A stretch of DNA of 64,000 bases from Merdibacter massiliensis (GTDB lineage: Bacteria > Bacillota_I > Bacilli_A > Erysipelotrichales > Erysipelotrichaceae), in assembly GCF_900155395.1 (NCBI RefSeq), contig NZ_LT699728.1:1-64000 (forward strand). The letters are read 5' to 3'. The position numbers and the translations under genes are program-made. Below are positions 42,539 to 55,636 of the stretch, piece by piece (position 1 is the stretch's first letter; each line of letters starts with the position of its first letter). The notes below the pieces were generated by a model. That model was not told the origin of the DNA and made no database searches. It saw nothing but the letters and a program-made list of their open reading frames with translations.

Positions 42539-44662
42539 TCATTCATACACCCGGTTCCAGCCAACTTCCTCCATTTCCCGTACGACATTCCTTGAGCAAA
42601 GATAAGTGATCATAAAATATCCTCCATAAATCAAAGCAACTAAAAGAATTGTTGGAAAGATGCCGTCCATTTGTGTTTTCACTCCGCTCATAGACAACAA
42701 CAAGGAACAAAACCGCAGTCCAAATATCGAATGGATCATCGCCAACCCTAAAGGAAGACCAAAAAAGAGCAAATTCTGGATAAAAAGAGAACGGCAGATG
42801 TCCTGGCGATCGATCCCCATCATAAATAAAATCTGATAACGCCGTCTTCCGTCATAAAAGGCTGCCATTTGCTTCAGTGCCAGAATGACCGCACATGAAA
42901 GCAAGAAAACGATACCTAGATACAGCCCAACAAAGATCACCAGCAAGGATAAAGTCCATACATTCTCCTGAATAGCAAGCCTTGTTGTCAAAGCAATTTC
43001 ATTCGGCAAGGATTTACCGCTTCCATTATTGACCCACAAAATGTGACGGTCATCTAAGAATTGTTCAAAACTTTCTTCTTCCGACAACTTGGTAAAACGA
43101 TCCTCGCCTTGATAATTCGTAAAGACCCGCTGATACTGTAGTTGTGATCGTTTTAATATGCCGTCAGGAACAATGATGACTCCTTCATTGATATTGGAGG
43201 CATTCATCTCCACATGTCCAAATGTGCAAGATACAGAAGAAGGCCGTAATGTTGTTCCATTTACTGCGATGTTTGATCCTTCCTTCATCGCAATCGAACG
43301 TATCTGTATCCAGACCTCTGCATCAGCTACAATGGCATATTCCTCACTCCCCAGTGTAATCGGTTCTGATTGGAAAAGTTTTGCCAAGCGATTATACTCG
43401 CTTACTTCCATGAACATATCATGCGATTGCAAGGTAATCGAAGGATACAGTTCTCGAATCAACTGAATGCTCTTTTCATTCATCGTATCTTCGATGCGAA
43501 TGCCATCTTCTTCATTTGCTATGACATAGTAATTGATGACAAGCGGATCTTGGAAATGCTCCATGATCGGATATCCCTGTTGTTGCAGTTCATCTAAGAT
43601 ACCGATTTGAGAACGCTGCACTTGTTCTGTGCTATAAAGACCATCAGCAGGCAGCTGCATTGTTTTCGTGATCATCAGATCACAAGGCAAACTGGTTTCC
43701 ATTTGCTGCAATGTAAATGAGTGAATGCTCATCGCGCTTGAAAAGATGCAAATCGTAAAAAACAACAGGATACAGATGATCGACATTGCACCAACTGTTG
43801 AATATAGTTGGGAATGCAATTCTCGAATCGTAAAACTGTTAAGACCATGAAAATAGGTTTCTTTCCATTTCTGCATGCACTTGATGGCTCCATGGGCAAC
43901 AGCATAGAAGATCAGAAATGTCGCAAAGATGCCCAACAGGATCATCCATCCTAACAGTCCAGGGAATTGTATGGTATAGCTTTTAACCGTTACCTGATAA
44001 TAAGCATATGATAACAGAAAAATTCCGATCAATAAAACAAGCACATACCAGAGCCAAGGTTTTTCATGACTTCCATCATTCCTGCGCTTCGCCCGCATCA
44101 GTTTTGTCAATGAGCTGCGCGTAATGGTAAATGTATTAAAAAGCATGACGCAAATATACATAAAAGAAAAACTGAACAATGTCATAGAAAAAGCAAATGG
44201 TGAAAAAGTAAATAGATAATGGCGCAGATCCACCTCAAATAAAGTAATGATGATCAAAGAAAGCAATTGTGATAAGATGATGCCCAACACCAAACCGATG
44301 ATCAAAGAAGCAATCCCGATCAGCATGGTTTCATAAATCAGTAATAGAGTAATGCGCAGCTTGCCCATGCCCAGCATTTGATAAAGAGCAAATTCTTCCT
44401 TCCTTCGGCGCATCAAAAACCGATTTGCATAGATGATCAGAAAATAAAAGACGATGGCAACAAAAAAACTGACAACTGCCATGATACTGGATAATATATC
44501 CATCATATTAGTTGCTGTTTCAGATAAGGAAGAAAGGACATCCTGGGACTCTAAAGAATTAAACATGTAGAAGATAGCAACACCCAATACCAATGTCAAA
44601 AAATAGATCGTATAATCCCGAACGCTTTTTGCCATATTCCGAAAAGCCAGTTTATATAACAT
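42539..44662 (-). CDS. BceB-type ABC transporter permease
   Basis: A 707-aa FtsX-like permease with ten expected membrane helices and a large extracellular domain between helices seven and eight (about 310-560). This is the hallmark of BceB proteins that recognise peptide antibiotics such as bacitracin. The N-terminal 'LYKLAFRNMAKSVRDYTIYFLTLVLGVAIFYMF' is typical. It works with the BceA-type ATPase and signals to the BceS-type kinase. It overlaps the ATPase stop codon and lacks its own promoter, so belongs to the four-gene operon. Confidence 0.93.
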   Translation of the reverse strand: MLYKLAFRNMAKSVRDYTIYFLTLVLGVAIFYMFNSLESQDVLSSLSETATNMMDILSSIMAVVSFFVAIVFYFLIIYANRFLMRRRKEEFALYQMLGMGKLRITLLLIYETMLIGIASLIIGLVLGIILSQLLSLIIITLFEVDLRHYLFTFSPFAFSMTLFSFSFMYICVMLFNTFTITRSSLTKLMRAKRRNDGSHEKPWLWYVLVLLIGIFLLSYAYYQVTVKSYTIQFPGLLGWMILLGIFATFLIFYAVAHGAIKCMQKWKETYFHGLNSFTIRELHSQLYSTVGAMSIICILLFFTICIFSSAMSIHSFTLQQMETSLPCDLMITKTMQLPADGLYSTEQVQRSQIGILDELQQQGYPIMEHFQDPLVINYYVIANEEDGIRIEDTMNEKSIQLIRELYPSITLQSHDMFMEVSEYNRLAKLFQSEPITLGSEEYAIVADAEVWIQIRSIAMKEGSNIAVNGTTLRPSSVSCTFGHVEMNASNINEGVIIVPDGILKRSQLQYQRVFTNYQGEDRFTKLSEEESFEQFLDDRHILWVNNGSGKSLPNEIALTTRLAIQENVWTLSLLVIFVGLYLGIVFLLSCAVILALKQMAAFYDGRRRYQILFMMGIDRQDICRSLFIQNLLFFGLPLGLAMIHSIFGLRFCSLLLSMSGVKTQMDGIFPTILLVALIYGGYFMITYLCSRNVVREMEEVGWNRVYE

Positions 44663-45419
44663 CGTTCGCGTCGCCTCCCAACAAGCTCTCTACATCAATG
44701 ATCTTGCTGAAAAACTGTTTTCGATCATCGCTTCCACGGTAGAATTCATGAAATAAGCGGCCATCTTTGATGAAAACAACACGGGAAGCATAGCTTGCTG
44801 TAAATGCATCATGAGTTACCATCAAGATCGTAGAAGACAACCGTTCATGCAAAGAAGCAAAGGTGGCCAACAATTGTCTTGCACTTTTAGAATCCAATGC
44901 CCCGGTTGGTTCATCGGCGAGCACAAGCTGTGGTTCGATCACTAGTGCACGTGCACAAGCAACACGCTGTTTTTGTCCTCCGGAAAGCTGATAAGGATAT
45001 TTCTGCAGACAATCCGCAATTCCCAGATAATTTGCCATGGTCATGATCTTTTGTTCGATCTGCACAGCCTTTTCATGTTTGATCTGTAATGCCAGTGCGA
45101 TGTTTTCAAAGGCTGTCATCGTATCTAAAAGGTGAAATTCTTGAAAGATAAAACCGAGATCATTGCGGCGATACATGGTCAGCTTTCTTCCGCGTAAACT
45201 GGTGATATCTTTTCCGTTGATATAGATATGCCCGCTGCTTACACGATCGATGCTCGATATACAGTTTAAAAGAGTCGTCTTCCCGGAACCGCTTGGCCCC
45301 ATGATAGCGACAAAATCTCCTTTTTGCACCGTTAAAGAAAGGCCGTCCAATGCCTTTGTCAAGGAAAAGGCATTGCCATAATATTTTTCAACTTTCTCAG
45401 CTCTCAATACTTCCATCAT
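44652..45419 (-). CDS. BceA-type ABC transporter ATPase
   Basis: A 255-aa ATPase. Walker A is 'IMGPSGSGKTTLLNCISSID', the Q-loop is 'LGFIFQEFHLLDTM', the signature is 'YQLSGGQKQRVACARALV' and Walker B is 'LVLADEPTGALDSKSA'. It powers the BceB-type permease in antimicrobial-peptide resistance. The ATG at 45419 has AAAGGA seven bases upstream and overlaps the kinase gene. A following ATG is a possible alternative. Confidence 0.95.
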   Translation of the reverse strand: MMEVLRAEKVEKYYGNAFSLTKALDGLSLTVQKGDFVAIMGPSGSGKTTLLNCISSIDRVSSGHIYINGKDITSLRGRKLTMYRRNDLGFIFQEFHLLDTMTAFENIALALQIKHEKAVQIEQKIMTMANYLGIADCLQKYPYQLSGGQKQRVACARALVIEPQLVLADEPTGALDSKSARQLLATFASLHERLSSTILMVTHDAFTASYASRVVFIKDGRLFHEFYRGSDDRKQFFSKIIDVESLLGGDANDVI

Positions 45420-46455
45420 CCATTTTTCCTTTCTTTGTATCATCTAATACTTGAAAAAAGGAATCTTTCTGAAATGCAATCGATACGACAGTTCCTTTTC
45501 CTAGTTGTGATGTTAATGTGATCCTATGTCCCAGTTTATTACAAAGCTGCTCACAAAGATACAGTCCCATGCCTGTCGACGCTTTTTGCATGCGTCCATT
45601 GCTTCCGGTAAAAGATTTTTCAAAGACACGTGGAAGTTCTGCTTCCGCAATACCTACCCCGTTGTCTGCAATCTTCAAATTCGTTATGGTACTTTCTTCT
45701 TCCACCCAGATACGGATCTTGCCTTCTCCTTTTTGACAATACTGAATTGCATTGTTCATGATCTGATTGATGATAAATTCCATCCATTTGCTGTCAGTGT
45801 ACACACAAGTACGGCTTGTTTCAAACTGGATAGCCACACCTCCATATAACAATGCATCCTTGTTGCGGCGAATGACATTTTGTACAAGTTCATCCAAAGA
45901 ACAGCGTTTGATCAAATAATCTTTCTCGCTGTTCTCACTGCGGGCATAATACAAGACTTGTTCTACATCATCTTCTACACGTTGAAATTGTTCACGCAGC
46001 TTTTTATTGACAGTCCCCGGGTTATTATGCAAGATCAGCTGCCCTGCCGCAATCGGCAATTTCACTTCATGGACCCACAATTCGATAAAATCCTTAAATT
46101 CTTCCATTGCTTCCTGATAAGATAAGATCTTCTCATTCATCGCTTTGTCAGCTTCATAGACAACCTGATGACAGATCTTTCCATCTAAAAAGGATGGAGG
46201 CGGCACCAGTTCATGAATCAGATATTTCTGGTCCAACTGATCTAATGTCAAGAATAATTGATGGTAATAATGGTGTCTTCGAAAAAACTCATAGAACAGT
46301 ATCCCGCAGCCAAAAAACAGGCCGGTTCCAGCGATGATCCCCAGCAATAAAAAATGCACGCGAAACAGAGATAACAAGAGCAAAATACTCGCAAATGCCG
46401 TTATATATAATGCAATCGATACTAAATGATCCCCTAAAAACATTCGTAATTTCAT
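45397..46455 (-). CDS. BceS-type intramembrane-sensing histidine kinase
   Basis: A 352-aa kinase with two membrane helices near the N-terminus and almost no extracellular loop ('VSIALYITAFASILLLLSLF', 'FLLLGIIAGTGLFFGCGILFY'), so sensing depends on the BceAB transporter. The H-box is 'ELWVHEVKLPIAAGQLILHN', the N-box is 'IINQIMNNAIQYCQ' and the G-boxes are 'LKIADNGVGIAEAEL' and 'GMGLYLCEQLCNKLG'. It phosphorylates the response regulator encoded just before it and overlaps its stop (ATGA). Confidence 0.93.
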   Translation of the reverse strand: MKLRMFLGDHLVSIALYITAFASILLLLSLFRVHFLLLGIIAGTGLFFGCGILFYEFFRRHHYYHQLFLTLDQLDQKYLIHELVPPPSFLDGKICHQVVYEADKAMNEKILSYQEAMEEFKDFIELWVHEVKLPIAAGQLILHNNPGTVNKKLREQFQRVEDDVEQVLYYARSENSEKDYLIKRCSLDELVQNVIRRNKDALLYGGVAIQFETSRTCVYTDSKWMEFIINQIMNNAIQYCQKGEGKIRIWVEEESTITNLKIADNGVGIAEAELPRVFEKSFTGSNGRMQKASTGMGLYLCEQLCNKLGHRITLTSQLGKGTVVSIAFQKDSFFQVLDDTKKGKMDDGSIES

Positions 46456-47114
46456 ACTAAGATATACCCCTGTCCTCTTCTTGTTTCGATCACGTCGATC
46501 AAACCGATTTCTTCCAGCTTCTTTCGTAATCGTGTAATATTGACCGTTAATGTGTTATCATCAATGAACTTATTGGTATCCCATAAATAATCCATCAAAG
46601 CATCTCGACTCACAATGCTTCCCTTATGTTGCAGCAAAAAGTGAAAGATCGCCATTTCATTTTTTGATAACAATAATTCCTGATTGTCTTTTTCCAAGGT
46701 ACTTTTTAATACATTGACGATGACTCCCTGATACACTTCCATGCCTGTGTGCTTGTTCATTCGTTTGAAAAGTGCCTCGATATGCAATAACAGCAACGTT
46801 GGATTATACGGCTTGCTGATATAATCATCCGCACCGTAACTCATCGACAGCACTTCATCTACTTCGCTGTTTCGGGATGTGACCATGATGATCGGCACAT
46901 CACTTTTGGCACGAACTTGTTTCAACACTTGTTGTCCGTTCATCTCTGGAATCATGATGTCTAACAGCACCAGATCCACATCCATGCTTAATATAGATTG
47001 CGCTACATGCGAAAATGAATGTAAGATCCTTCCTTCATATCCGTTATTATCCAGCAAAATCTTTAGTTCTTCTTGCAAAGAGCTGTCATCTTCAACGATC
47101 AATACTTTTTTCAT
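46452..47114 (-). CDS. BceR-type OmpR-family response regulator
   Basis: A 220-aa regulator. The receiver domain has the acidic pair in 'VLIVEDDSSL', the phosphoacceptor Asp in 'VDLVLLDIMIPEMNG' and the conserved Lys in 'DDYISKPYNPTLL'. The C-terminal winged helix reads 'SRDALMDYLWDTNKFIDDNTLTVNITRLRKKLEEIG'. It should bind the inverted repeat upstream of its own gene. The ATG at 47114 has AGGTG six bases upstream; a GTG three codons earlier is less likely. It is the first gene of the operon. Confidence 0.94.
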   Translation of the reverse strand: MKKVLIVEDDSSLQEELKILLDNNGYEGRILHSFSHVAQSILSMDVDLVLLDIMIPEMNGQQVLKQVRAKSDVPIIMVTSRNSEVDEVLSMSYGADDYISKPYNPTLLLLHIEALFKRMNKHTGMEVYQGVIVNVLKSTLEKDNQELLLSKNEMAIFHFLLQHKGSIVSRDALMDYLWDTNKFIDDNTLTVNITRLRKKLEEIGLIDVIETRRGQGYILV

Positions 47115-47131
47115 TGTCTTCACCTGCTTTC

Positions 47132-47137
47132 ATTATA
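47132..47137 (-). promoter_or_regulatory. -10 box of the BceRSAB-type operon
   Basis: TATAAT on the minus strand, 17 bp before the regulator ATG. No good -35 is present; the -35 position directly abuts the BceR-type operator, as expected of an activator-dependent promoter. Confidence 0.65.
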
Positions 47138-47159
47138 ACCAATTTTAGATGATCCGTAT

Positions 47160-47175
47160 CTTACATCCATGTAAG
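47160..47175. promoter_or_regulatory. BceR-type operator
   Basis: CTTACATCCATGTAAG, a perfect inverted repeat that matches the published BceR-group consensus T-N-A-C-A-N4-T-G-T-A-A exactly (TTACA-TCCA-TGTAA). It ends 22 bp upstream of the -10. Confidence 0.8.
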
Positions 47176-47191
47176 CTATTGATTCTCCAAG

Positions 47192-47220
47192 AAAAAAAGA
47201 GGCATGTTATGCGTGCCCCT
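47192..47220 (-). terminator. Terminator overlapping the TSCPD gene end
   Basis: On the minus strand AGGGGCA / TGCCTCT (one wobble pair) around a 9-nt loop containing the stop codon, then seven T. Confidence 0.75.
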
Positions 47221-47467
47221 GCAAACGGTATTGTTTCAATGCACATGCGATTTGATCCGGGCAGCTTGTAGACTTTGCTCCACAGCGCACTCCTTCAAAT
47301 GCTTTTATGACTTCATCAATGCTTTTATTTTCTAACATGCGGGAGATTCCTAATAAATTCCCCGGACATCCTCCCACGATCGTCACTTTGCGAATGACGT
47401 CACCATCCATTTCAAAACGCATTTCTTTTGAACAAACTCCTTTTGGCTGATATACAAATTGTTCCAT
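47207..47467 (-). CDS. TSCPD-domain protein (TIGR03905 type)
   Basis: An 86-aa protein with the whole family pattern: 'YQPKGVCSKEMRFEMDGDVI', 'VTIVGGCPGNLLGISRML' and 'GVRCGAKSTSCPDQIACAL', which ends in the T-S-C-P-D motif. Four conserved cysteines suggest metal or redox chemistry. The domain also occurs at the C-terminus of B12-dependent ribonucleotide reductases; a stand-alone function is unknown. GGGAGG precedes the ATG. It lies 14 bp after the Gx-family gene as the last of a three-gene operon. Confidence 0.88.
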   Translation of the reverse strand: MEQFVYQPKGVCSKEMRFEMDGDVIRKVTIVGGCPGNLLGISRMLENKSIDEVIKAFEGVRCGAKSTSCPDQIACALKQYRLQGHA

Positions 47468-47481
47468 CTTACATTCCTCCC

Positions 47482-47973
47482 TTAATTCAGACGATTTAAT
47501 ACCTGCTGTGCAAACATCGCCATGATCAGGCCAGTCGGAATAGATAAAGCTACCAGGATCGGCAGCAATGCCTGCATGAAAAACTGCTGATAGATCCATG
47601 TGATCACAAGCACTTGTGCAATGCTGTGTGCGCAGCTGCCTAATACGCTGACTCCATATATGCTGAAGCAGGAAAAATGCTTTGCCGCGCTCATGACCAT
47701 TGCACTGAGCAATACACCGGCCAATGAGAGCCAGAACGATGTTGCAAATAACATGCCGGACAATAAAGAAGCAAATAGGACACGTATGATTCCAACCGTA
47801 AATATTGCTTGTACACCAAAGTAATAAAGAGCGATCAATGACAGGATGTTTGCTAAACCTAAACGAAATCCTGGAATTGGCAACGGGATGACCACCATTG
47901 ATTCAATAAAATGAAAAATGATCGCAAGAGCACATAAGAGTGCAAATAACGTCATCTTCTGTACCGGTTTCAT
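47482..47973 (-). CDS. Gx-transporter/HepPP-synthase-component-I family membrane protein (EetB-like)
   Basis: A 163-aa membrane protein with five to six helices. 'IPGFRLGLANILSLIALYYFG' is the conserved family block (G-x-R-L-G-L-A-N). In Listeria the homologous EetB works with EetA in flavin-based extracellular electron transfer; older annotations call the family heptaprenyl-diphosphate synthase component I. It overlaps the NusG-II gene (ATGA), the same pairing as eetA-eetB. The other electron-transfer parts (Ndh2, DmkA/B, ApbE) are not seen in this window. Confidence 0.8.
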   Translation of the reverse strand: MKPVQKMTLFALLCALAIIFHFIESMVVIPLPIPGFRLGLANILSLIALYYFGVQAIFTVGIIRVLFASLLSGMLFATSFWLSLAGVLLSAMVMSAAKHFSCFSIYGVSVLGSCAHSIAQVLVITWIYQQFFMQALLPILVALSIPTGLIMAMFAQQVLNRLN

Positions 47974-48338
47974 TGAATCTGCGTATCGACAGCACCTTTC
48001 TCACTGCCTTCAATGCGAACAACAACTTCATTTGGCAAACAGATGATCGGTGTGGACGGGTCGCTGACATAACCTTGAATCGAACAATAATGATAGGGAG
48101 AATTTTCTTTTTCGACCCTTACTTTTCCATCATTGATCTCGACCATGACCTCACCTAACTTTCCCGTAACCGAATAAGTCGCATTTTCCCATAAAGAAAC
48201 ACGCAACACTTCTTCATCCTTCACCTTGACCACAACTTCTTCTGCTTGGACCCCATCATAGGCAAACCATAAAGGTACATAGAAGAGTACACAAGCTGCC
48301 ATAATGAGCACTATACATATTTTATCTGCTCGCTTCAT
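47970..48338 (-). CDS. NusG domain II protein (EetA-like)
   Basis: A 122-aa protein with one N-terminal membrane helix ('ICIVLIMAACVLFYVPLWF') and a NusG domain II fold outside the membrane: 'VVVKVKDEEVLRVSLWENATY', then 'GKVRVEKENSPYHYCSIQGYVSDPSTPIICLPNEVVVRI', where the C..C-L-P-x-x-V ending is diagnostic. In Listeria the EetA protein of the electron-transfer locus contains this type of domain. It is the first gene of the operon with the Gx-family and TSCPD genes. Confidence 0.82.
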   Translation of the reverse strand: MKRADKICIVLIMAACVLFYVPLWFAYDGVQAEEVVVKVKDEEVLRVSLWENATYSVTGKLGEVMVEINDGKVRVEKENSPYHYCSIQGYVSDPSTPIICLPNEVVVRIEGSEKGAVDTQIQ

Positions 48339-48413
48339 ATTTGTCCTCCGACGAAATCATTATACGAAATTGTTCATTTTTTGCAAGTCATGCTGCATCA
48401 TACAAATAAGAAA

Positions 48414-48439
48414 AAGAACGCATTTCGCAATACGTTCTT
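48414..48439 (-). terminator. Terminator after the FMN_bind-like lipoprotein gene
   Basis: A 7-bp outer stem (AAGAACG / CGTTCTT) extended by an inner ATT/AAT pairing, followed by a T-rich tail on the minus strand. Confidence 0.75.
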
Positions 48440-48441
48440 AT

Positions 48442-48852
48442 TTAGGATTGAGCATCTGCCTTCGCTTTATTATAGACATCGACATACTTCTCGATAGAGA
48501 TGGTACATCCGCTCAACACATCGCTGTTCTTGGCACGTCCTTGTTCATCAAAAGTCAATGAATCACTGTCATGTTCTACCAAATAGTTTTCCAAATATTG
48601 AATCTGTTCATACCATTCTTTCCCAATGCTGCTGTACTGTTTCAAGCCATAACTGTCTTTCTTATCTTTTTTTGACTCGCCACCGCTTGTTTCATCGATC
48701 GATACAGATTCTACCTTCTCTCCATTCATTTTTACAGTTGCAGAAATCGTTTCTCCATCCACTGTTTCTTTTGCTTCACCGCTTCCATTGCCTGTTCCTC
48801 CACAGCCTGCTAACAACAGTACACATGCACTAAGACAAATCAATCTGCGCAT
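48442..48852 (-). CDS. Small lipoprotein with FMN_bind-like domain (PplA-like, tentative)
   Basis: A 136-aa protein with a signal peptide and lipobox 'LLLAGCGG' (Cys about residue 17). The mature part begins with a Gly/Ser linker and resembles FMN-binding extracellular domains: 'VKMNGEKVESVSIDETSGG', then a charged helix 'SSIGKEWYEQIQYLENYLVE', and finally 'SDVLSGCTISIEKYVDVYNKA', equivalent to D-x-x-S-G-A-T-x-S, the covalent FMN attachment site with Cys in place of Ala. The threonine is retained. Its neighbourhood beside EetA/EetB-like genes supports the assignment. A full FMN_bind domain would be longer. Confidence 0.65.
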   Translation of the reverse strand: MRRLICLSACVLLLAGCGGTGNGSGEAKETVDGETISATVKMNGEKVESVSIDETSGGESKKDKKDSYGLKQYSSIGKEWYEQIQYLENYLVEHDSDSLTFDEQGRAKNSDVLSGCTISIEKYVDVYNKAKADAQS

Positions 48853-48984
48853 TCCAATTTACCTCCATTCATACTCACAGTATTTCCATATTTAATAAAA
48901 ATAAACATAAAAAACTGTACCTGTTTAAATATAGCAATAAAGATAAAAATACTCCAGTATAAATCAAAAATATCCATATTTTAC

Positions 48985-49014
48985 AAAAAAAGTGATTTAT
49001 AAATCACTTTTTTT
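48985..49014. terminator. Terminator overlapping the end of the carbonic anhydrase gene
   Basis: A perfect 30-bp palindrome with A-run and T-run ends (AAAAAAAGTGATTTA and its complement). It includes the last codons of the coding region. Confidence 0.85.
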
Positions 49015-49509
49015 ACTATATTTATCTGCTAACCCAACATAATGTTCTGCATTCCATTTGATCATCTTTCGCTGATCATCACTTAACTCTTTTAACTTGC
49101 ACGGAATGCCCATCGCCAACGTACCGCTGGGAATCCTTTTTCCTTCCGTTACTAACGCACCCGCCGCAATCATGCTTTGTGTTTCAATATAAGCTCCATT
49201 CAATATGGTTGCCCGCATTCCGATCAATACTTCATCTTCTACAATTGCACCATGAACGATGGCGCCATGGCCGATAGTAACATTGTCGCCAATGTTCACC
49301 TCATATCCGCGATCACAATGCAGGATGCATCCGTCTTGTACATTGCTGTTTTTTCCAACGGTTATTTTACCGCTGTCTCCACGCAGTATACATCCATACC
49401 AGATGGATGCCCCTTCTTGAATCTCCACATCGCCAATCAACACAGCATCTTCGGCAATAAATGCATTTTTAGCAATCACTGGTTTATGTCCATTTAATTC
49501 TTTGATCAT
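48997..49509 (-). CDS. Gamma-carbonic anhydrase-family protein
   Basis: A 170-aa left-handed beta-helix protein built from hexapeptide repeats, for example 'IAEDAVLIGDVEIQEGASIWYGCIL'. Candidate zinc ligands are 'LHCDRGYEV' and the 'GHGAIVHGAIV' pair. Members include true gamma-carbonic anhydrases and PaaY-like thioesterases; activity cannot be decided here. The ATG at 49509 follows AGGAGAAG; an upstream in-frame start has no site. Confidence 0.9.
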   Translation of the reverse strand: MIKELNGHKPVIAKNAFIAEDAVLIGDVEIQEGASIWYGCILRGDSGKITVGKNSNVQDGCILHCDRGYEVNIGDNVTIGHGAIVHGAIVEDEVLIGMRATILNGAYIETQSMIAAGALVTEGKRIPSGTLAMGIPCKLKELSDDQRKMIKWNAEHYVGLADKYSKKSDL

Positions 49510-49610
49510 TTTTTCTTCTCCTATTACAAGCACATTATACCATTCCAAAAGATGGAATAAAATATGCTTTCGATGATTTAATGATCCAGAAAGTGTTGAA
49601 GAGAAACGTC

Positions 49611-50321
49611 TTATCGATGGATATGCTTTTTTTGTTCCTCTTTTCGAAATGCTTTATACAGTTTCAAGAAAGCACGCTTTTCTATTCTTGAAATATAAGA
49701 ACGCGATATTGATAATTCTTCTGCAATTTGTTTTTGTGTCTGTTCTTTCTCCCCATGCAGCCCAAAACGCTTTTCTAATACAAGCAGTTCTCTTTCATCC
49801 AATAGCGGCAAATATTTTTCCAGCTGCTTCAATCGTTGTTCTAATTGAATCTGTTCCACCACGCTTCTCTGCGGGGGTGCCGCAATCGCATCCAATAATG
49901 TGATCTCGCTGCCGTCTTTTTCATTCGCTATCGGTTCATTTAAAGATACTTCTTGTAAACTATTTTTATTCTTTCGCAAATACATCAAAATTTCATTTTC
50001 AATACAGCGAGAAGCATAAGTCGTCAGTTTTTTTCCGTAAGCTGGTTGAAAGGAATCGATTGCTTTGATCAGTCCGATCGTTCCGATACTGATCAGATCG
50101 TCGCTTTGTGTTTTTTTAATATCGTATTTTTTTACGATATGGGCAACCAAACGCAGATTATGTTCGATCAATTTCTCTCTGGCACCACGATCCTGCTGCT
50201 GCAAAAGTGCAATACACTTTTCTTCCTCCTCTTTTGATAACGGTTTTGCAAAACTTTGTGAACGTATATAGCCGGTAAAGTAAAACATGGATGCAAGTGC
50301 TTCCATCAAAAGCGTAAACAA
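49611..50321 (-). CDS. sigK: Mother-cell RNA polymerase sigma factor SigK
   Basis: About 236 aa, full length and uninterrupted, so there is no skin element here. The short hydrophobic N-terminal pro-region ('MEALASMFYFTGYIRSQSF', with 'KPLS' following) matches pro-SigK. Region 2 reads 'GAREKLIEHNLRLVAHIVKKYDI' and 'DDLISIGTIGLIKAIDSFQP', and region 4 ends 'TQKQIAEELSISRSYISRIEKRAFLKLYKAF'. It drives late mother-cell genes in sporulation. A TTG at 50321 has AGGTG six bases upstream; a GTG at 50330 coincides with that site and gives three more residues. A SigE-like promoter precedes it. Confidence 0.93.
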   Translation of the reverse strand: MFTLLMEALASMFYFTGYIRSQSFAKPLSKEEEEKCIALLQQQDRGAREKLIEHNLRLVAHIVKKYDIKKTQSDDLISIGTIGLIKAIDSFQPAYGKKLTTYASRCIENEILMYLRKNKNSLQEVSLNEPIANEKDGSEITLLDAIAAPPQRSVVEQIQLEQRLKQLEKYLPLLDERELLVLEKRFGLHGEKEQTQKQIAEELSISRSYISRIEKRAFLKLYKAFRKEEQKKHIHR

Positions 50322-50338
50322 ATCTATCACCTGTTCTC

Positions 50339-50367
50339 AATCTATGCGACAAAATTCTGATCTATGC
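50339..50367 (-). promoter_or_regulatory. SigE-like promoter of sigK
   Basis: -35 GCATAGA (50361-50367), a 14-bp spacer and -10 CATAGATT (50339-50346) on the minus strand, matching the Bacillus SigE pattern KMATATT-N14-CATACAMT at 11 of 15 positions. Both boxes lie in a 12-bp direct repeat, ATCTATGCGACA. The predicted mRNA start is nearly at the ribosome site, giving a very short leader. Confidence 0.55.
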
Positions 50368-50485
50368 GACATTTTAGATGAAAACTACTTTCATCTGTTA
50401 AATAAACAGCTTCTTTTTTGTACGTTATCTGAAAAAAAAGATAAAATATTTCGAAATTATTTCATTTTTTTTATGATTTTGTTAA

Positions 50486-50506
50486 GATAAAATAGGTTAT
50501 TTTATC
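50486..50506. promoter_or_regulatory. Palindrome upstream of the orphan lipoprotein gene
   Basis: GATAAAAT-AGGTT-ATTTTATC, a perfect inverted repeat with a 5-nt centre, 26 bp before the lipoprotein start. Candidate operator; no regulator is known for it. Confidence 0.4.
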
Positions 50507-50532
50507 GAATCATATAAAAAGAGGTGTTCATG

Positions 50533-51066
50533 ATGAAAGTTGCTTTGCCTACTGTTTTACTGGTCACGATGCTCCTTCTCTTTGGCTGTAGTGATCCAGA
50601 AACAGATTCCATTAATGAAACAATTGAAGAAAATAATGAAAAGATCAGCGAAAATGCAGAAGCAAACTCCGCTATTCAAACGGTACATTCTTTAGATGAT
50701 GCAAAAGCACAGCTTGCACAGGATTGGGCAGTTCAAGAACCAACGGAAATACCGGACGGTTATTCTTTGCTGGATTATTATGTGTATGACAAAGATCTCA
50801 TAGAAATTCGCTACAGCCAATCGGATAATCAAAATGAACTGTATTATCGTACAAGCAGACGCCATGGAGACATCAGTGGAAATTCACATCCATATACTAA
50901 TGTGGAAACCATTTCATCAGAAACGATCGATCAGATTCAAGTGCGTGGAAGTGATGATCTATGGATGGTCGCAACCTGGAATAAAGATGATATAGCTTAC
51001 TCTATCTTCTGTGAAAAAGGTTTATCTCAGGATGCATTGACTGCAATGATCGATTCTATTCAATAA
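50533..51066 (+). CDS. Uncharacterised lipoprotein
   Basis: A 177-aa protein with a signal peptide and lipobox 'MLLLFGCSD' (Cys about residue 19). The mature part begins with an acidic helix ('DSINETIEENNEKISENAEAN') and ends in a domain with 'EPTEIPDGYSLLDYYVYDKDLIEIRY', a pattern seen in DUF4367-type extracellular domains. No confident family was recognised. It is a plus-strand gene between sigK and the hypothetical protein gene. The ATG at 50533 has GAGGTG six bases upstream. Confidence 0.75.
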   Translation: MKVALPTVLLVTMLLLFGCSDPETDSINETIEENNEKISENAEANSAIQTVHSLDDAKAQLAQDWAVQEPTEIPDGYSLLDYYVYDKDLIEIRYSQSDNQNELYYRTSRRHGDISGNSHPYTNVETISSETIDQIQVRGSDDLWMVATWNKDDIAYSIFCEKGLSQDALTAMIDSIQ

Positions 51067-51075
51067 TCTATATAA

Positions 51076-51126
51076 AAAAAAGCAAACTTCTCTGTTCGCA
51101 TGCGCCAACAGAAAGCTTGCTTTTTT
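51076..51126. terminator. Bidirectional terminator between convergent genes
   Basis: A 10-bp outer stem (AAAAAAGCAA / TTGCTTTTTT) with a second inner stem TCTGTT / AACAGA. It stands between the orphan lipoprotein and the converging hypothetical gene. Confidence 0.85.
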
Positions 51127-51128
51127 AT

Positions 51129-52187
51129 TTATGCTTTCAAGAACGGTTGATAATGAATGGCAAAGTGTATCTTTGACTGTAAATCTTCCAACACGATAGC
51201 AAATGCATCTTTATCAAAGATTGCAAAATCAATATAAGAGTATTGTGTTCCAATGGCACCGCCGATCGTGCGTGCAATTGCCAACGGCTGCAAGAGATCA
51301 TTCAGCTTCTTCTCCATCGTTTGACGTATCAAAGCATTCTTTTCATCATCATAGGGATTTTCATAATACAGATATCCGTACTCGCCGCCTTTGTCACGAA
51401 AATCTATGCAGGAATCATAATTTTTTGCTAAAAGTTCTTCCTGCAGAAGAGAGTTCGTCGTGATGATGAGTTTCATATCTTTTCGTAATGCATCACTTGT
51501 TGGTTCTTCATTCACTTTAAATGCCATATAGATATTGGTTGGCTCATGATATTCTAACCATTCCCGATCGATCACGATATCGCACACATCTTCATAGAAA
51601 TTTGGCAGTAAACAAAAATTTTCGCTATCCTGGATTGGCTGATCGATCGGCGTGATAGTGGCAATACGTGCTTCCAATTCAAGCTCTCCCAAAAAAAGCT
51701 CCAGCATATAAGCAGACATCTCTCTTTTTCGATCTTCATCTGCAATATCTTGAAAGCCAGGACAATAAACATCGACATGCAGGCAGCGATTTGTATCATC
51801 GATCTCATAAAAAACCGTGAAGTCTGCTCCTGTATATACTTTATCTTTGATGCGCAAGACAGCATTCTTGGCTTTTGAGGAATAAGGCGGCAGCCAGCTG
51901 TTGATGATCCAATCCTCGACTAGTTCTTTAGGCGCACACTGACGCATCAATTCTGTAATATACTGCACGGTCTTATTTGGACCTGTATCAAAAGTCATCT
52001 CAAAAAAGCCATCTTCATTCAATTCGATCAATACCTTGCAACCGCAAATGGTTTCTAATCGCACATTGATCTCTTTGATCAGATCTTCTGCCAGTGCATC
52101 TTCTCCATCACGCAAAGCAGATTCTAATTCTTTTTGCAAACTTAAAAAATATTTCCAAAATTCCTGTATTCGATATTTACAGTTCAC
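51129..52187 (-). CDS. Uncharacterised cytoplasmic protein
   Basis: A 352-aa soluble, acidic protein with no signal peptide, membrane helix or motif that I recognise. The N-terminal 60 residues are helical ('FLSLQKELESALRDGEDALAEDLIKEINVRLETICG'); the remainder alternates strand and helix in two related-looking halves (about 60-190 and 190-352). GTG at 52187 follows GAGGGA at six bases; a GTG nine codons upstream has a poorer site. It lies between the orphan lipoprotein and sigF and runs the same way as sigF, after an intergenic gap. Confidence 0.75.
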   Translation of the reverse strand: MNCKYRIQEFWKYFLSLQKELESALRDGEDALAEDLIKEINVRLETICGCKVLIELNEDGFFEMTFDTGPNKTVQYITELMRQCAPKELVEDWIINSWLPPYSSKAKNAVLRIKDKVYTGADFTVFYEIDDTNRCLHVDVYCPGFQDIADEDRKREMSAYMLELFLGELELEARIATITPIDQPIQDSENFCLLPNFYEDVCDIVIDREWLEYHEPTNIYMAFKVNEEPTSDALRKDMKLIITTNSLLQEELLAKNYDSCIDFRDKGGEYGYLYYENPYDDEKNALIRQTMEKKLNDLLQPLAIARTIGGAIGTQYSYIDFAIFDKDAFAIVLEDLQSKIHFAIHYQPFLKA

Positions 52188-52232: not shown

Positions 52233-52961
52233 TCATGTATTCACCAACTCGTTTTTCAACTTCTCGAGCACTTTTCTTTCCAAACGGGAAACCTGTACCT
52301 GCGATACATGCAAACGTTGAGCAATTTCTTCCTGTTTCATTCCCAGATCATAACGGTAATGCAGCAACAACTGTTCCCGCTGTGATAAACGTGCGATCTC
52401 TTGGCGCAAAGATACCTGTAAGGTTACGTCCTTTTGTTTTTCATCTGCCACTTTATCTTCTAACAAGATAGGCGAACCATCATTTTCATAAATGACTTCA
52501 TCAAAGGATAGCGTAAACTGATTGGCTTCAAAAGCCAAGATGACATCTTCTACTTCTAGATGACACGCCTGTGCAATCTCTTCATAACTTACTTCCCGTC
52601 CATAATTTTGCTGCAGCTGTTCTCTCACTTTGAGCATCTGCAGATAATTTTCCTTCATCGATCTGGAGATGCGTATGCTGCCGTCATCTCGAAAAAAGCG
52701 TTTGATCTCTCCTAAAATGATCGGTACAGCATAGGTGGAAAACTTCACTTGATAACGCAGATCAAAATGATTCAAGGCCTTCATCAGACCCACGCAGCCA
52801 ATCTGTACCAGTTCTTCAAATGGTATGCGTGAGGAAACAAAACGTTTAGCGAGTGCATATACCAAAGGCTGATTACGTGTGACAAATACATCCTTTGCTT
52901 CTTGAGAGCCTTCTTGAATTGCCTGGATCAGCTCCTCATTGCTCATTTCTTCTAATTTCAC
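52233..52961 (-). CDS. sigF: Forespore RNA polymerase sigma factor SigF
   Basis: A 242-aa sporulation sigma factor. Region 2 reads 'PFEELVQIGCVGLMKALNHFDLRYQVKFSTYAVPIILGEIKRF' and region 4 reads 'MKQEEIAQRLHVSQVQVSRLERKVLEKLKN'. Held inactive by SpoIIAB until SpoIIAA is dephosphorylated, it directs early forespore genes. The GTG start overlaps the spoIIAB stop (GTGA), so translation is coupled. It is the last gene of spoIIA. Confidence 0.96.
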   Translation of the reverse strand: MKLEEMSNEELIQAIQEGSQEAKDVFVTRNQPLVYALAKRFVSSRIPFEELVQIGCVGLMKALNHFDLRYQVKFSTYAVPIILGEIKRFFRDDGSIRISRSMKENYLQMLKVREQLQQNYGREVSYEEIAQACHLEVEDVILAFEANQFTLSFDEVIYENDGSPILLEDKVADEKQKDVTLQVSLRQEIARLSQREQLLLHYRYDLGMKQEEIAQRLHVSQVQVSRLERKVLEKLKNELVNT

Positions 52962-53374
52962 AAAAGCTTCTTTTCTATATGCAGGTTCGTGCCTACACCT
53001 GGTTTTGAATCTACATGAAAAACGTCCGCAAAGGTTTGCATGATCGTAAATCCCATTCCGCTTCTTTCAAGATCCTGACGGCTTGTATATAATGGCTGCA
53101 TGGCCTGCTCGATGTTCGCAATGCCGCAGCCTTGATCAAATAGATCGATAATGATGATCTCTTCGTCATAACAGACTTCTAAAGCAATATCTCCATCCTC
53201 TTTTCCTTCATATCCATGGATCATGGCATTGACCACCCCTTCAGCGATGATCGTTTTGATCTCCATCAATGTTTCCATTGATAAGTGTAATGGCGCAAGA
53301 AATGCAACGACACAGGTCCTTGCGAATGCTTCATTCTCTAATCTGCTTTTGAATATCAGTTTCATTTCATTCAT
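52958..53374 (-). CDS. spoIIAB: Anti-sigma F factor SpoIIAB
   Basis: A 138-aa GHKL serine kinase and anti-sigma factor. The N-box is 'EGVVNAMIHGYEG', then 'IIDLFDQGCGIANIEQAM' and 'GMGFTIMQTFADVFH' bind ATP. It sequesters SigF and phosphorylates SpoIIAA. It overlaps both neighbours (ATGA at the start, GTGA at the end). Confidence 0.96.
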   Translation of the reverse strand: MNEMKLIFKSRLENEAFARTCVVAFLAPLHLSMETLMEIKTIIAEGVVNAMIHGYEGKEDGDIALEVCYDEEIIIIDLFDQGCGIANIEQAMQPLYTSRQDLERSGMGFTIMQTFADVFHVDSKPGVGTNLHIEKKLL

Positions 53375-53688
53375 TTTCTTCCCTCACTTTTCTCATAGCG
53401 GATGATCTGGAAGATCCCGCTCATGTCAAAGATCGTTTTATTTAACCGTGACAGATTGCAGATGATCACTTCTCCACCCTGCTGTTTCATCTGCTTATAT
53501 CTCGCCAACACAAAACCGATCCCGCTGCTGTCCACGAAGGTAACATTCGCAAAATCAAGTTTTAAAATTCTTGGATGAAAGCGTTCGATCAGTTGAATGC
53601 TTTCCTCTTTCATTTCCAATACATGAAGATGATCAAAATCACCGTCAAAAAAAAGACGGAGCTCATCTTTTTGATATGTATGCTTCAT
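53371..53688 (-). CDS. spoIIAA: Anti-anti-sigma factor SpoIIAA
   Basis: A 105-aa STAS-domain protein. The phosphorylated serine is in 'LDFANVTFVDSSGIGFVLARYK' (D-S-S-G-I-G). In dephosphorylated form it frees SigF from SpoIIAB. The ATG at 53688 follows GGAGGG at six bases; the short in-frame GTG extension lacks a better site. Two Spo0A boxes lie upstream. Confidence 0.95.
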   Translation of the reverse strand: MKHTYQKDELRLFFDGDFDHLHVLEMKEESIQLIERFHPRILKLDFANVTFVDSSGIGFVLARYKQMKQQGGEVIICNLSRLNKTIFDMSGIFQIIRYEKSEGRK

Positions 53689-53739
53689 TTTCAACCCTCC
53701 GCTCACACTCTATCACAGATAAAATGACATGTGGACTTC

Positions 53740-53748
53740 TTCGACAAA
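53740..53748 (-). promoter_or_regulatory. Spo0A box 1 upstream of spoIIAA
   Basis: TTTGTCGAA on the minus strand, containing the perfect core TGTCGAA, 52 bp before the spoIIAA start. Confidence 0.75.
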
Positions 53749-53774
53749 GGTTGTCAGAACACGTCAAAAAAGCG

Positions 53775-53783
53775 TTCGACAAA
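53775..53783 (-). promoter_or_regulatory. Spo0A box 2 upstream of spoIIAA
   Basis: A second TTTGTCGAA with the same orientation, centred 35 bp upstream of box 1. A degenerate TTGTCAGAA lies between them on the other strand. Confidence 0.75.
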
Positions 53784-53793
53784 TATTGTTCAC

Positions 53794-53830
53794 AAAAAAA
53801 GACAGATGCCGCATCATGCAAACATCTGTC
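53794..53830 (-). terminator. Terminator separating dacF from spoIIAA
   Basis: On the minus strand GACAGATG / CATCTGTC with a 14-nt loop, then seven T. It contains the dacF stop codon, so spoIIA transcription must begin after it. Confidence 0.8.
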
Positions 53831-54983
53831 GAAAAGAACGGATCCATAGATCCACAAAATTTGCGCTGCTGATTTCTTTCTTCACAGACAAATCGATCGA
53901 AAACCGATACCCGTCGCTCATGGTCACCATTAATCGCGCGCATGTCTTGCCAGGCACATACGGCGGATCCGGTTGCAACCATTGTATCTTTTTTTCTTTG
54001 ACCGCTGACTGCTTTCCTTTTTCTACTACATAATTTGCATCCTCTTGCGTGACCAAATCAATCGTAGATGGATTTCCTTTTTCATTCACGATGCTGGTGA
54101 TCTTCTCGCCTTTTTTATACAGCTGTCTTTGTTCAAAACGCGAGAAGCCATATTCGATCAAAGCAGAGGCTTCTTGATTGCGTGTCTTTCCATCCGGTTC
54201 ACCCATCACTACCGCAATCAAACGCAAATCATTTCGCTTTGTCGTTACGCTGATACAGCTGCCTGCCTGTGATGTGTAGCCTGTCTTTAATCCGTCCGTC
54301 CCATCTAATTGTTTGATGAGCTTATTGGTATTGACCAGCCAGAAACGTTCACTGTCTTCACGGATATACGCATCGTAGGTACTCGTAATCTCTAAAAGAT
54401 CGTCTCCGCCTTCTTGGATCAATGCCTGTGCGATCAAAGCCATATCTTTCGCACAGCTGTAATGATCATCTGCATGCAGACCCGTCGCATTGACAAAATG
54501 GGTGTTGACTAAATGCAGTTCTTTTGCTTTTGCATTCATCATTTCTACAAAGCTTTCCTGCGTCCCGCCAACCTTTTCCGCCATTGCTACCATGGCATCA
54601 TTTGCCGAAGCGATACAAATGCTTTTGAGCAGATCTTCCACGCTCATCGTTTCTCCAACTTTCAGGTAGACTTGCGAACCGCCCATGCTTGCTGCTGTCT
54701 CACTGGTGGTCACACGATCACTCAGCTTTAACTTGCCGGCATGGATCTGTTCATAGATCAACAGCAGTCCCATCATTTTTGTCATGGATGCCGGATACAT
54801 CTTTTCACTCTCCTGCTTTGCAAAGATCATTTTTCCGCTGCTCATTTCCATCAAATAGGCACTTTTTGCTTGTGCAGCCAATGATGTATCACTGATGACC
54901 TGTGTCGTTTCACTGCCATGGATAGGAACCAGCAACAGCATCCACACCAGCCAAACCAATAAAAACTTATATTTCTTCCCCAT
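53814..54983 (-). CDS. dacF: D-alanyl-D-alanine carboxypeptidase DacF (low-molecular-weight PBP)
   Basis: A 389-aa S11 serine peptidase with a signal peptide ('FLLVWLVWMLLLVPIHG'). Catalytic motifs are 'PASMTKMMGLL' (S-x-x-K), 'CIASANDAMVAM' (S-x-N) and 'GLKTGYTSQAGSC' (K-T-G); a C-terminal PBP5-like domain follows. It trims pentapeptide stems of peptidoglycan; in Bacillus DacF regulates cortex cross-linking in the forespore. Its place just before spoIIA is the same as in Bacillus. The ATG at 54983 has GAGG nine bases upstream. Confidence 0.93.
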   Translation of the reverse strand: MGKKYKFLLVWLVWMLLLVPIHGSETTQVISDTSLAAQAKSAYLMEMSSGKMIFAKQESEKMYPASMTKMMGLLLIYEQIHAGKLKLSDRVTTSETAASMGGSQVYLKVGETMSVEDLLKSICIASANDAMVAMAEKVGGTQESFVEMMNAKAKELHLVNTHFVNATGLHADDHYSCAKDMALIAQALIQEGGDDLLEITSTYDAYIREDSERFWLVNTNKLIKQLDGTDGLKTGYTSQAGSCISVTTKRNDLRLIAVVMGEPDGKTRNQEASALIEYGFSRFEQRQLYKKGEKITSIVNEKGNPSTIDLVTQEDANYVVEKGKQSAVKEKKIQWLQPDPPYVPGKTCARLMVTMSDGYRFSIDLSVKKEISSANFVDLWIRSFRQMFA

Positions 54984-55024
54984 GTGCATCGACCTCAATA
55001 AACTGTATGCACTGACCAATGAAA

Positions 55025-55636
55025 TCATGTCTGATTTGCTTGATAGGAAACTTTGGCAGCCGGCAGATACATCCGCTGTAATTGCAGGATCTTTCCATTC
55101 ATGCCTTTTACATATGTAAAATAACTTTGCATCTGAATGATATTTCCTTCATTGCTTCGATAGCCTCTTCCATTGGGATCTACATCGATCATAAATGATA
55201 GAGAAACGTTTTCTTTCCCCTCTTCCTGCATTTGTTTTGCTACATCCCAACAAAACGTATGCTCATCCATCTGCTGCACATAAGGCAGTGATTCATGATG
55301 AAAAGAGACAGCGGCACATAAACAATATTGCAATGTACCTACCCGCTGCACAGCTTCTTTCCTTGTCAAGATTGGCGGATCTGGATCGATCACATAAGGA
55401 GAAAGCAGCTGTGCACTTTCAAAATCCAGTTTCTCTATCTGGATAGATCGCTGTGCCAGTTCAACCTCCAGCTCTACCAGAAATTGATTTTCTTTGACCC
55501 ACGACACATGCTGGGTGATCACGACCCCGTCTTGTTGAGACTGCATGATTGGCGTCAGGCTTTTCCATTGCAGAGCAGAGGATGGAAACAGATGAATCGA
55601 ACAGACGATGAACAGCATGATTTGTATTAGTTTCAT
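55025..55636 (-). CDS. Uncharacterised secreted protein upstream of dacF
   Basis: A 203-aa protein with a signal peptide ('IQIMLFIVCSIHLFPSSALQW'), no lipobox and no other membrane segment. The mature domain is mixed alpha/beta; 'LDFESAQLLSPYVIDPDPPIL' and 'DVDPNGRGYRSNEGNIIQMQS' are its most distinctive stretches. No family was recognised. The ATG at 55636 follows GGAGGG. With dacF 41 bp on, both may be co-transcribed, which hints at a cell-wall or spore role, but this is inference. Confidence 0.7.
   Translation of the reverse strand: MKLIQIMLFIVCSIHLFPSSALQWKSLTPIMQSQQDGVVITQHVSWVKENQFLVELEVELAQRSIQIEKLDFESAQLLSPYVIDPDPPILTRKEAVQRVGTLQYCLCAAVSFHHESLPYVQQMDEHTFCWDVAKQMQEEGKENVSLSFMIDVDPNGRGYRSNEGNIIQMQSYFTYVKGMNGKILQLQRMYLPAAKVSYQANQT

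Follow-up and report, generated by a model that had tools for sequence, protein, structure and literature searches.

The four-gene locus described here lies in a window of 64,000 nucleotides from the start of contig NZ_LT699728.1 of Merdibacter massiliensis (Erysipelotrichaceae), and is probably a flavin-trafficking module together with one client, in which FAD is exported for the flavinylation of RnfG, RnfD and a small lipoprotein, with Rnf as the likeliest electron source. The most interesting element of the module is the conserved Cys-type flavinylation motif of the lipoprotein.

Gene content and arrangement

The open reading frames, together with matches to NusG_II, PF07456 and TSCPD/TIGR03905, bore out the four genes at the place and on the strand assigned to them in an earlier note on this DNA (Table 1). 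All four reading frames are intact in the window, and a genome-wide search returned one copy each of EetA and EetB. The overlap of 4 bp previously seen between these two genes is the ATGA at 47970-47973, shared by the eetA stop and the eetB start.

Table 1. Features of the lipoprotein-eetA-eetB-TSCPD locus (window coordinates)
Feature	Position	Strand	Basis
Lipoprotein gene, 136 aa, one FMN_bind domain	48442..48852	-	ORF, profile/family matches, predicted structure
Signal peptide and lipobox, residues 1-17, predicted lipidated Cys17	48802..48852	-	Sequence LLLAGC
Flavinylation-type motif D111-V-L-S-G-C-T117, predicted FMN acceptor T117	48502..48522	-	Sequence, alignment with 8p2b
Intrinsic-terminator-like hairpin between lipoprotein gene and eetA	48414..48439	-	Folding z -3.1
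eetA, NusG domain II membrane protein, 122 aa	47970..48338	-	PF07009 E 1.9e-23
eetB, ECF-S-type (Gx, PF07456) membrane protein, 163 aa	47482..47973	-	PF07456 E 1.4e-37
Stand-alone TSCPD protein, four conserved Cys	47207..47470	-	TSCPD 3.9e-25, TIGR03905 3.3e-30

The locus had been regarded as one operon closed by the TSCPD gene. The TSCPD gene does follow eetB, but eetA is preceded by an 11-bp terminator-like hairpin, placed after the lipoprotein gene, and even transcription of all four genes as a single operon cannot therefore be taken for granted. Differing hairpins are found at the equivalent spot in five related loci (L067, L073, L079, L080 and L086). The hairpin suggests that the lipoprotein is made in greater amount than the transporter. 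Promoter-like sites were no more frequent than in shuffles, and no Rfam elements were found in 45000-51500.

A hexapeptide-repeat protein gene (48997-49548) and then a hairpin lie 5' of the lipoprotein gene, and a two-component regulator gene lies downstream of the locus. At 42539-47123, genes for a response regulator, a histidine kinase, an ABC ATPase and a permease together resemble a Bce-type antibiotic-sensing/resistance module. Those at 52233-55028, judged by sequence, resemble dacF-spoIIAA-spoIIAB-sigF, a sporulation sigma factor operon. The outside domain of EetA holds two cysteines, C85 and C100 (HLC...ICLPN), which are kept in Erysipelotrichaceae homologs, and EetA of Clostridia has an additional one (DCPGQDC); a disulfide or redox role is possible for these residues. 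A literature search on TSCPD gave nothing.

Fold and family of the lipoprotein

As judged from its predicted structure, the lipoprotein has the FMN_bind fold. PF04205 (FMN_bind) scored 21.6 bits against the window protein, where the cut-off is 22, and 22.1 bits against the frame in the genome; FMN_bind was matched by 13 of 24 homologs (E 0.01), and the family profile matched the solved protein 2kzx at 3e-11. The model (mean pLDDT 88) agreed best with 3o6u (Z 10.3 over 102 residues, rmsd 2.5), and also matched 2kzx (Z 9.0; Foldseek E 1.2e-4) and 8p2a (Z 7.3). The refuting outcome named in the earlier note, a structure prediction lacking the FMN_bind fold, was thus not obtained. IscU and CO-dehydrogenase also appeared in the structure comparisons with weaker scores (Z about 5-6), and were dismissed as common arrangements. 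The cysteine of the lipobox (LAGC17) is invariant in sets of 24 and of 41 homologs.

The PplA profile matched the window protein weakly (E 0.0082; 0.0004 for a relative), with a score far below the PplA cut-off. A PplA equivalog search across the class returned 0 matches, the controls being likewise blank. The protein has one domain, as against the two FMN-bearing Thr of PplA (PMC8906456).

Many relatives carry two lipoprotein gene copies in tandem (L069, L070, L072, L074, L076, L077, L079-L081 and L085), where the window has one. Two of the second copies found in related loci (L084:8592-9065 and L089:8458-8925) have lost both the Cys and the Thr of the motif (DLKDHVDLD and DLVDYVGID), and are therefore not flavinylatable there.

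A Cys-type flavinylation motif

The flavinylation-type motif noticed earlier in the lipobox-bearing protein of 136 residues is present as DVLSGCTIS, which fits the published ApbE motif D-x-x-[S/T]-G-A-[S/T] (PMC12052999) everywhere except for Cys in the place of Ala. In the alignment with 8p2b, T117 pairs with residue 67, the Thr that bears FMN in the crystal (PMC10339131). The Cys had been called unusual, and it does depart from the published Ala, but it is no local oddity: 48 of 57 collected single-domain relatives have Cys at this position (Val in 7, Ala in 2), counts that pool related sequences and do not represent independent events. The motif Asp is retained in 56 and the Thr in 54 of these 57. 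Among 97 domains of multi-domain relatives, the Ala position is Val in 62, Cys in 20 and Ala in 6, and the acceptor is Thr in 92, the other 5 having Ser. Some relatives keep the Cys in motifs that have no Gly (DLRTQCTIT, DLKMECTIE, DLKMMCSIK), and this, with its retention in the 48 single-domain proteins, indicates that the Cys is under selection. On these alignments, Cys for Ala is a lineage trait common to the family and not a peculiarity of one genome.

It can be argued that the lipoprotein now carries no covalent FMN, that the Cys motif has been recruited otherwise (for non-covalent flavin, thiol chemistry or structure), and that EetAB serves RnfG and RnfD only. We consider this unlikely. 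The persistence of the Cys, also in Gly-less motifs, and the Ala of the published ApbE motifs are in line with such a loss; the near-constant Asp and Thr argue against it, as does the occurrence of ApbE in every one of the 34 genomes that are at least 90% complete and encode a single-domain lipoprotein. In another ApbE substrate, exchange of Ala for Val leaves about half of the flavinylation (PMC12052999). A protein of a different type, 460 residues long with four DAVSGCTITS motifs, is encoded directly upstream of eetB in Hungatella hathewayi WAL-18680 (L103:3309-4688); apbE and a two-domain relative whose motifs are AGCT lie close by, which likewise speaks for flavinylation. We infer that the SGCT-type motif of the window protein may be flavinylated at T117. 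The large family of small flavin-type lipoproteins with Cys or Val for the published Ala could be missed by surveys that demand [ST]GA[ST], and it raises the question whether ApbE can flavinylate a GCT motif.

EetB and flavin transport

EetB has the ECF-S fold according to its predicted structure (mean pLDDT 87.6). The fold was assigned by structure, the sequence having no match in the PDB: the model matches ECF-S subunits, RibU best (5kbw, Z 15.3 over 159 residues, rmsd 3.0), with Z 14.6 for 3p5n. RibU is a riboflavin importer subunit. EcfA, EcfA' and EcfT are encoded elsewhere in the genome (G000:C2), and the ECF ATPases and T subunit are thus available; no dedicated FmnA was identified in the genome, and the locus has no FmnA gene.

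In Listeria, EetB is a FAD-binding ECF-S subunit that exports FAD for ApbE and is required for FAD export and for flavinylation of PplA (Rivera-Lugo 2023, PMC9973259). Deletion of eetA there gave no EET phenotype, and eetB colocalises most commonly with Rnf and EET systems (PMC9973259). In the known system EetA and EetB are therefore not electron carriers, which tells against the reading of the locus as a cluster for extracellular electron transfer (EET). By analogy with Listeria, EetB of Merdibacter would export FAD. Its nearest fold, RibU, could be taken to mean that it imports a flavin instead, and this we regard as very unlikely, since Listeria EetB failed to replace RibU in uptake and is needed for export (PMC9973259) and since eetA tracks apbE throughout the order. 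In 244 genomes of the order both genes are present in 182, neither in 40, and 22 are discordant, which gives a concordance of 222/244 and an odds ratio of 61 with kinship ignored.

Conserved neighbourhood

The order lipoprotein(s)-eetA-eetB-TSCPD is found in many Erysipelotrichaceae genera, often with two tandem lipoproteins. The lipoprotein gene is less than 500 bp from the eetA match in 16 genomes compared by coordinates, and of the 34 named loci that have a single-domain lipoprotein, 13 carry a TSCPD gene 3' of eetB. Of 46 loci with two-domain relatives in named Clostridia, 30 have apbE next to the relative. RnfC or RnfD is also encoded in 12 loci, of which L135 and L137, with the arrangement eetA-eetB-lipoprotein-apbE-rnfCDG, are examples; for the single-domain lipoproteins, RnfC/D occurs in just 1 of the 34 named loci.

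In one locus the TSCPD gene follows apbE (L122:4396-4683). Another genome (G105, L153:10527-10964) encodes one more lipoprotein of this family about 2.7 kb downstream of rnfB, the sole direct rnf neighbourhood of the family among the Erysipelotrichaceae stretches compared.

ApbE, Rnf and the missing quinone arm

The earlier note found no Ndh2, demethylmenaquinone enzymes or ApbE in the neighbourhood, which is correct, and proposed a search for them in the genome (2.47 Mb, 99.85% complete). The search divided them. A single ApbE is encoded (G000:C19:150731-151534, E 1.4e-69), so that the lack of ApbE which, together with a lack of flavin on the protein, had been named as evidence against flavinylation is not found. 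Its gene divergently adjoins an rnfCDGEAB operon (L004) on a contig, C19, other than that of the lipoprotein locus, and what connects the locus to Rnf here is therefore co-occurrence and not adjacency. Only two FMN_bind proteins are encoded in the genome, namely RnfG (SGATRSS) and the window lipoprotein.

The quinone arm is missing. The UbiA family (DmkA) is needed for (demethyl)menaquinone. No UbiA prenyltransferase (PF01040) was matched in the 99.85% complete genome, whereas 14 of 14 control genomes were matched, and no type-II NADH dehydrogenase (NDH-2) was recognisable genome-wide; the sole NDH-2-like match, to an E. coli Ndh query, is a protein of the CoA-disulfide-reductase type that also has a rhodanese domain. 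Without UbiA and a recognisable NDH-2, the canonical quinone-based EET chain is absent, and the designation of the locus as a partial EET cluster finds no support; the evidence favours the fallback offered with it, in which the module has another function, for instance an Rnf-like one. A Listeria-type chain of Ndh2, demethylmenaquinone and PplA with its other genes scattered in the genome would fit the overlapping eetA-eetB pair and the weak PplA match of an FMN_bind lipoprotein, and is made highly improbable by the same absences and by the single domain of the lipoprotein. That the locus is a decaying, now functionless remnant of an EET operon, as the missing ndh2 and dmk genes might suggest, is hardly credible given four intact frames and a gene order kept in many genera along with conserved residues.

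RnfB (L004:10349-10657) is of 102 residues only, with a membrane helix and the first 4Fe-4S motif (one Fd domain). A comparably short RnfB is encoded by 13 further genomes from the order (L153-L164 and L167), always last in rnfCDGEAB and with apbE divergent. The short form was dropped as a novelty, as RnfB of Thermotoga maritima has been described as FdI only (PMC9588780).

Proposed role of the module

EetB and EetA, probably with the general EcfA/EcfA'/EcfT engine, would carry FAD across the membrane to the outside. There the single ApbE would attach FMN from the exported FAD to RnfG, to RnfD and to the lipoprotein (T117 of DVLSGCT), which would be a small one-flavin carrier of electrons, tethered to the membrane. 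The likeliest electron source of this carrier would be the Rnf complex rather than quinol, because the genome has neither UbiA nor a recognisable NDH-2; Rnf may accordingly be its electron donor. It is tempting to speculate further that in Erysipelotrichaceae that are free of a quinone pathway, electron flow from RnfG to the Cys-type flavolipoproteins forms a quinone-free, Rnf-driven outward outlet, with the conserved Cys next to the FMN-bearing Thr participating in the transfer or tuning it, a proposal that we hold to be rather doubtful. The proposed role would change the meaning of eetAB in such genomes from a partial iron-reduction chain to a FAD supply for flavinylation, which bears on estimates of EET capacity that are drawn from the gene content of gut bacteria, and it raises the question whether Rnf has an outward electron partner.

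Comparison with known systems

The module can be compared to the EetA/EetB FAD-export module of Listeria monocytogenes (PMC9973259), with which it shares both gene families and their order, the ECF-S fold of EetB, and a genome that also encodes ApbE and Ecf ATPases. It differs in that the Merdibacter locus has no FmnA gene, ndh2 or dmk genes, that apbE adjoins rnf on another contig, and that a TSCPD gene follows eetB. The lipoprotein is similar to PplA in being an FMN_bind lipoprotein near eetAB (PMC8906456, PMC9973259), but is single-domain where PplA has two FMN sites, and has Cys in its motif. The solved proteins 3o6u (CPE2226) and 2kzx (A3DHT5), each with a single FMN_bind domain, share the predicted fold of the lipoprotein over its whole mature length at a sequence identity of about 22-25%, and 2kzx (DAISGATI) has Ala where the window protein has Cys. 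Finally, the Rnf of Thermotoga maritima with its short RnfB (PMC9588780, PMC7414866) resembles that of the Merdibacter genome, which has rnfCDGEAB, an RnfB of one Fd domain and an RnfG that carries SGAT. In Merdibacter, unlike in Thermotoga, apbE is divergently adjacent, and Rnf is proposed to be the main client, and perhaps the electron donor, of the flavin-trafficking module.
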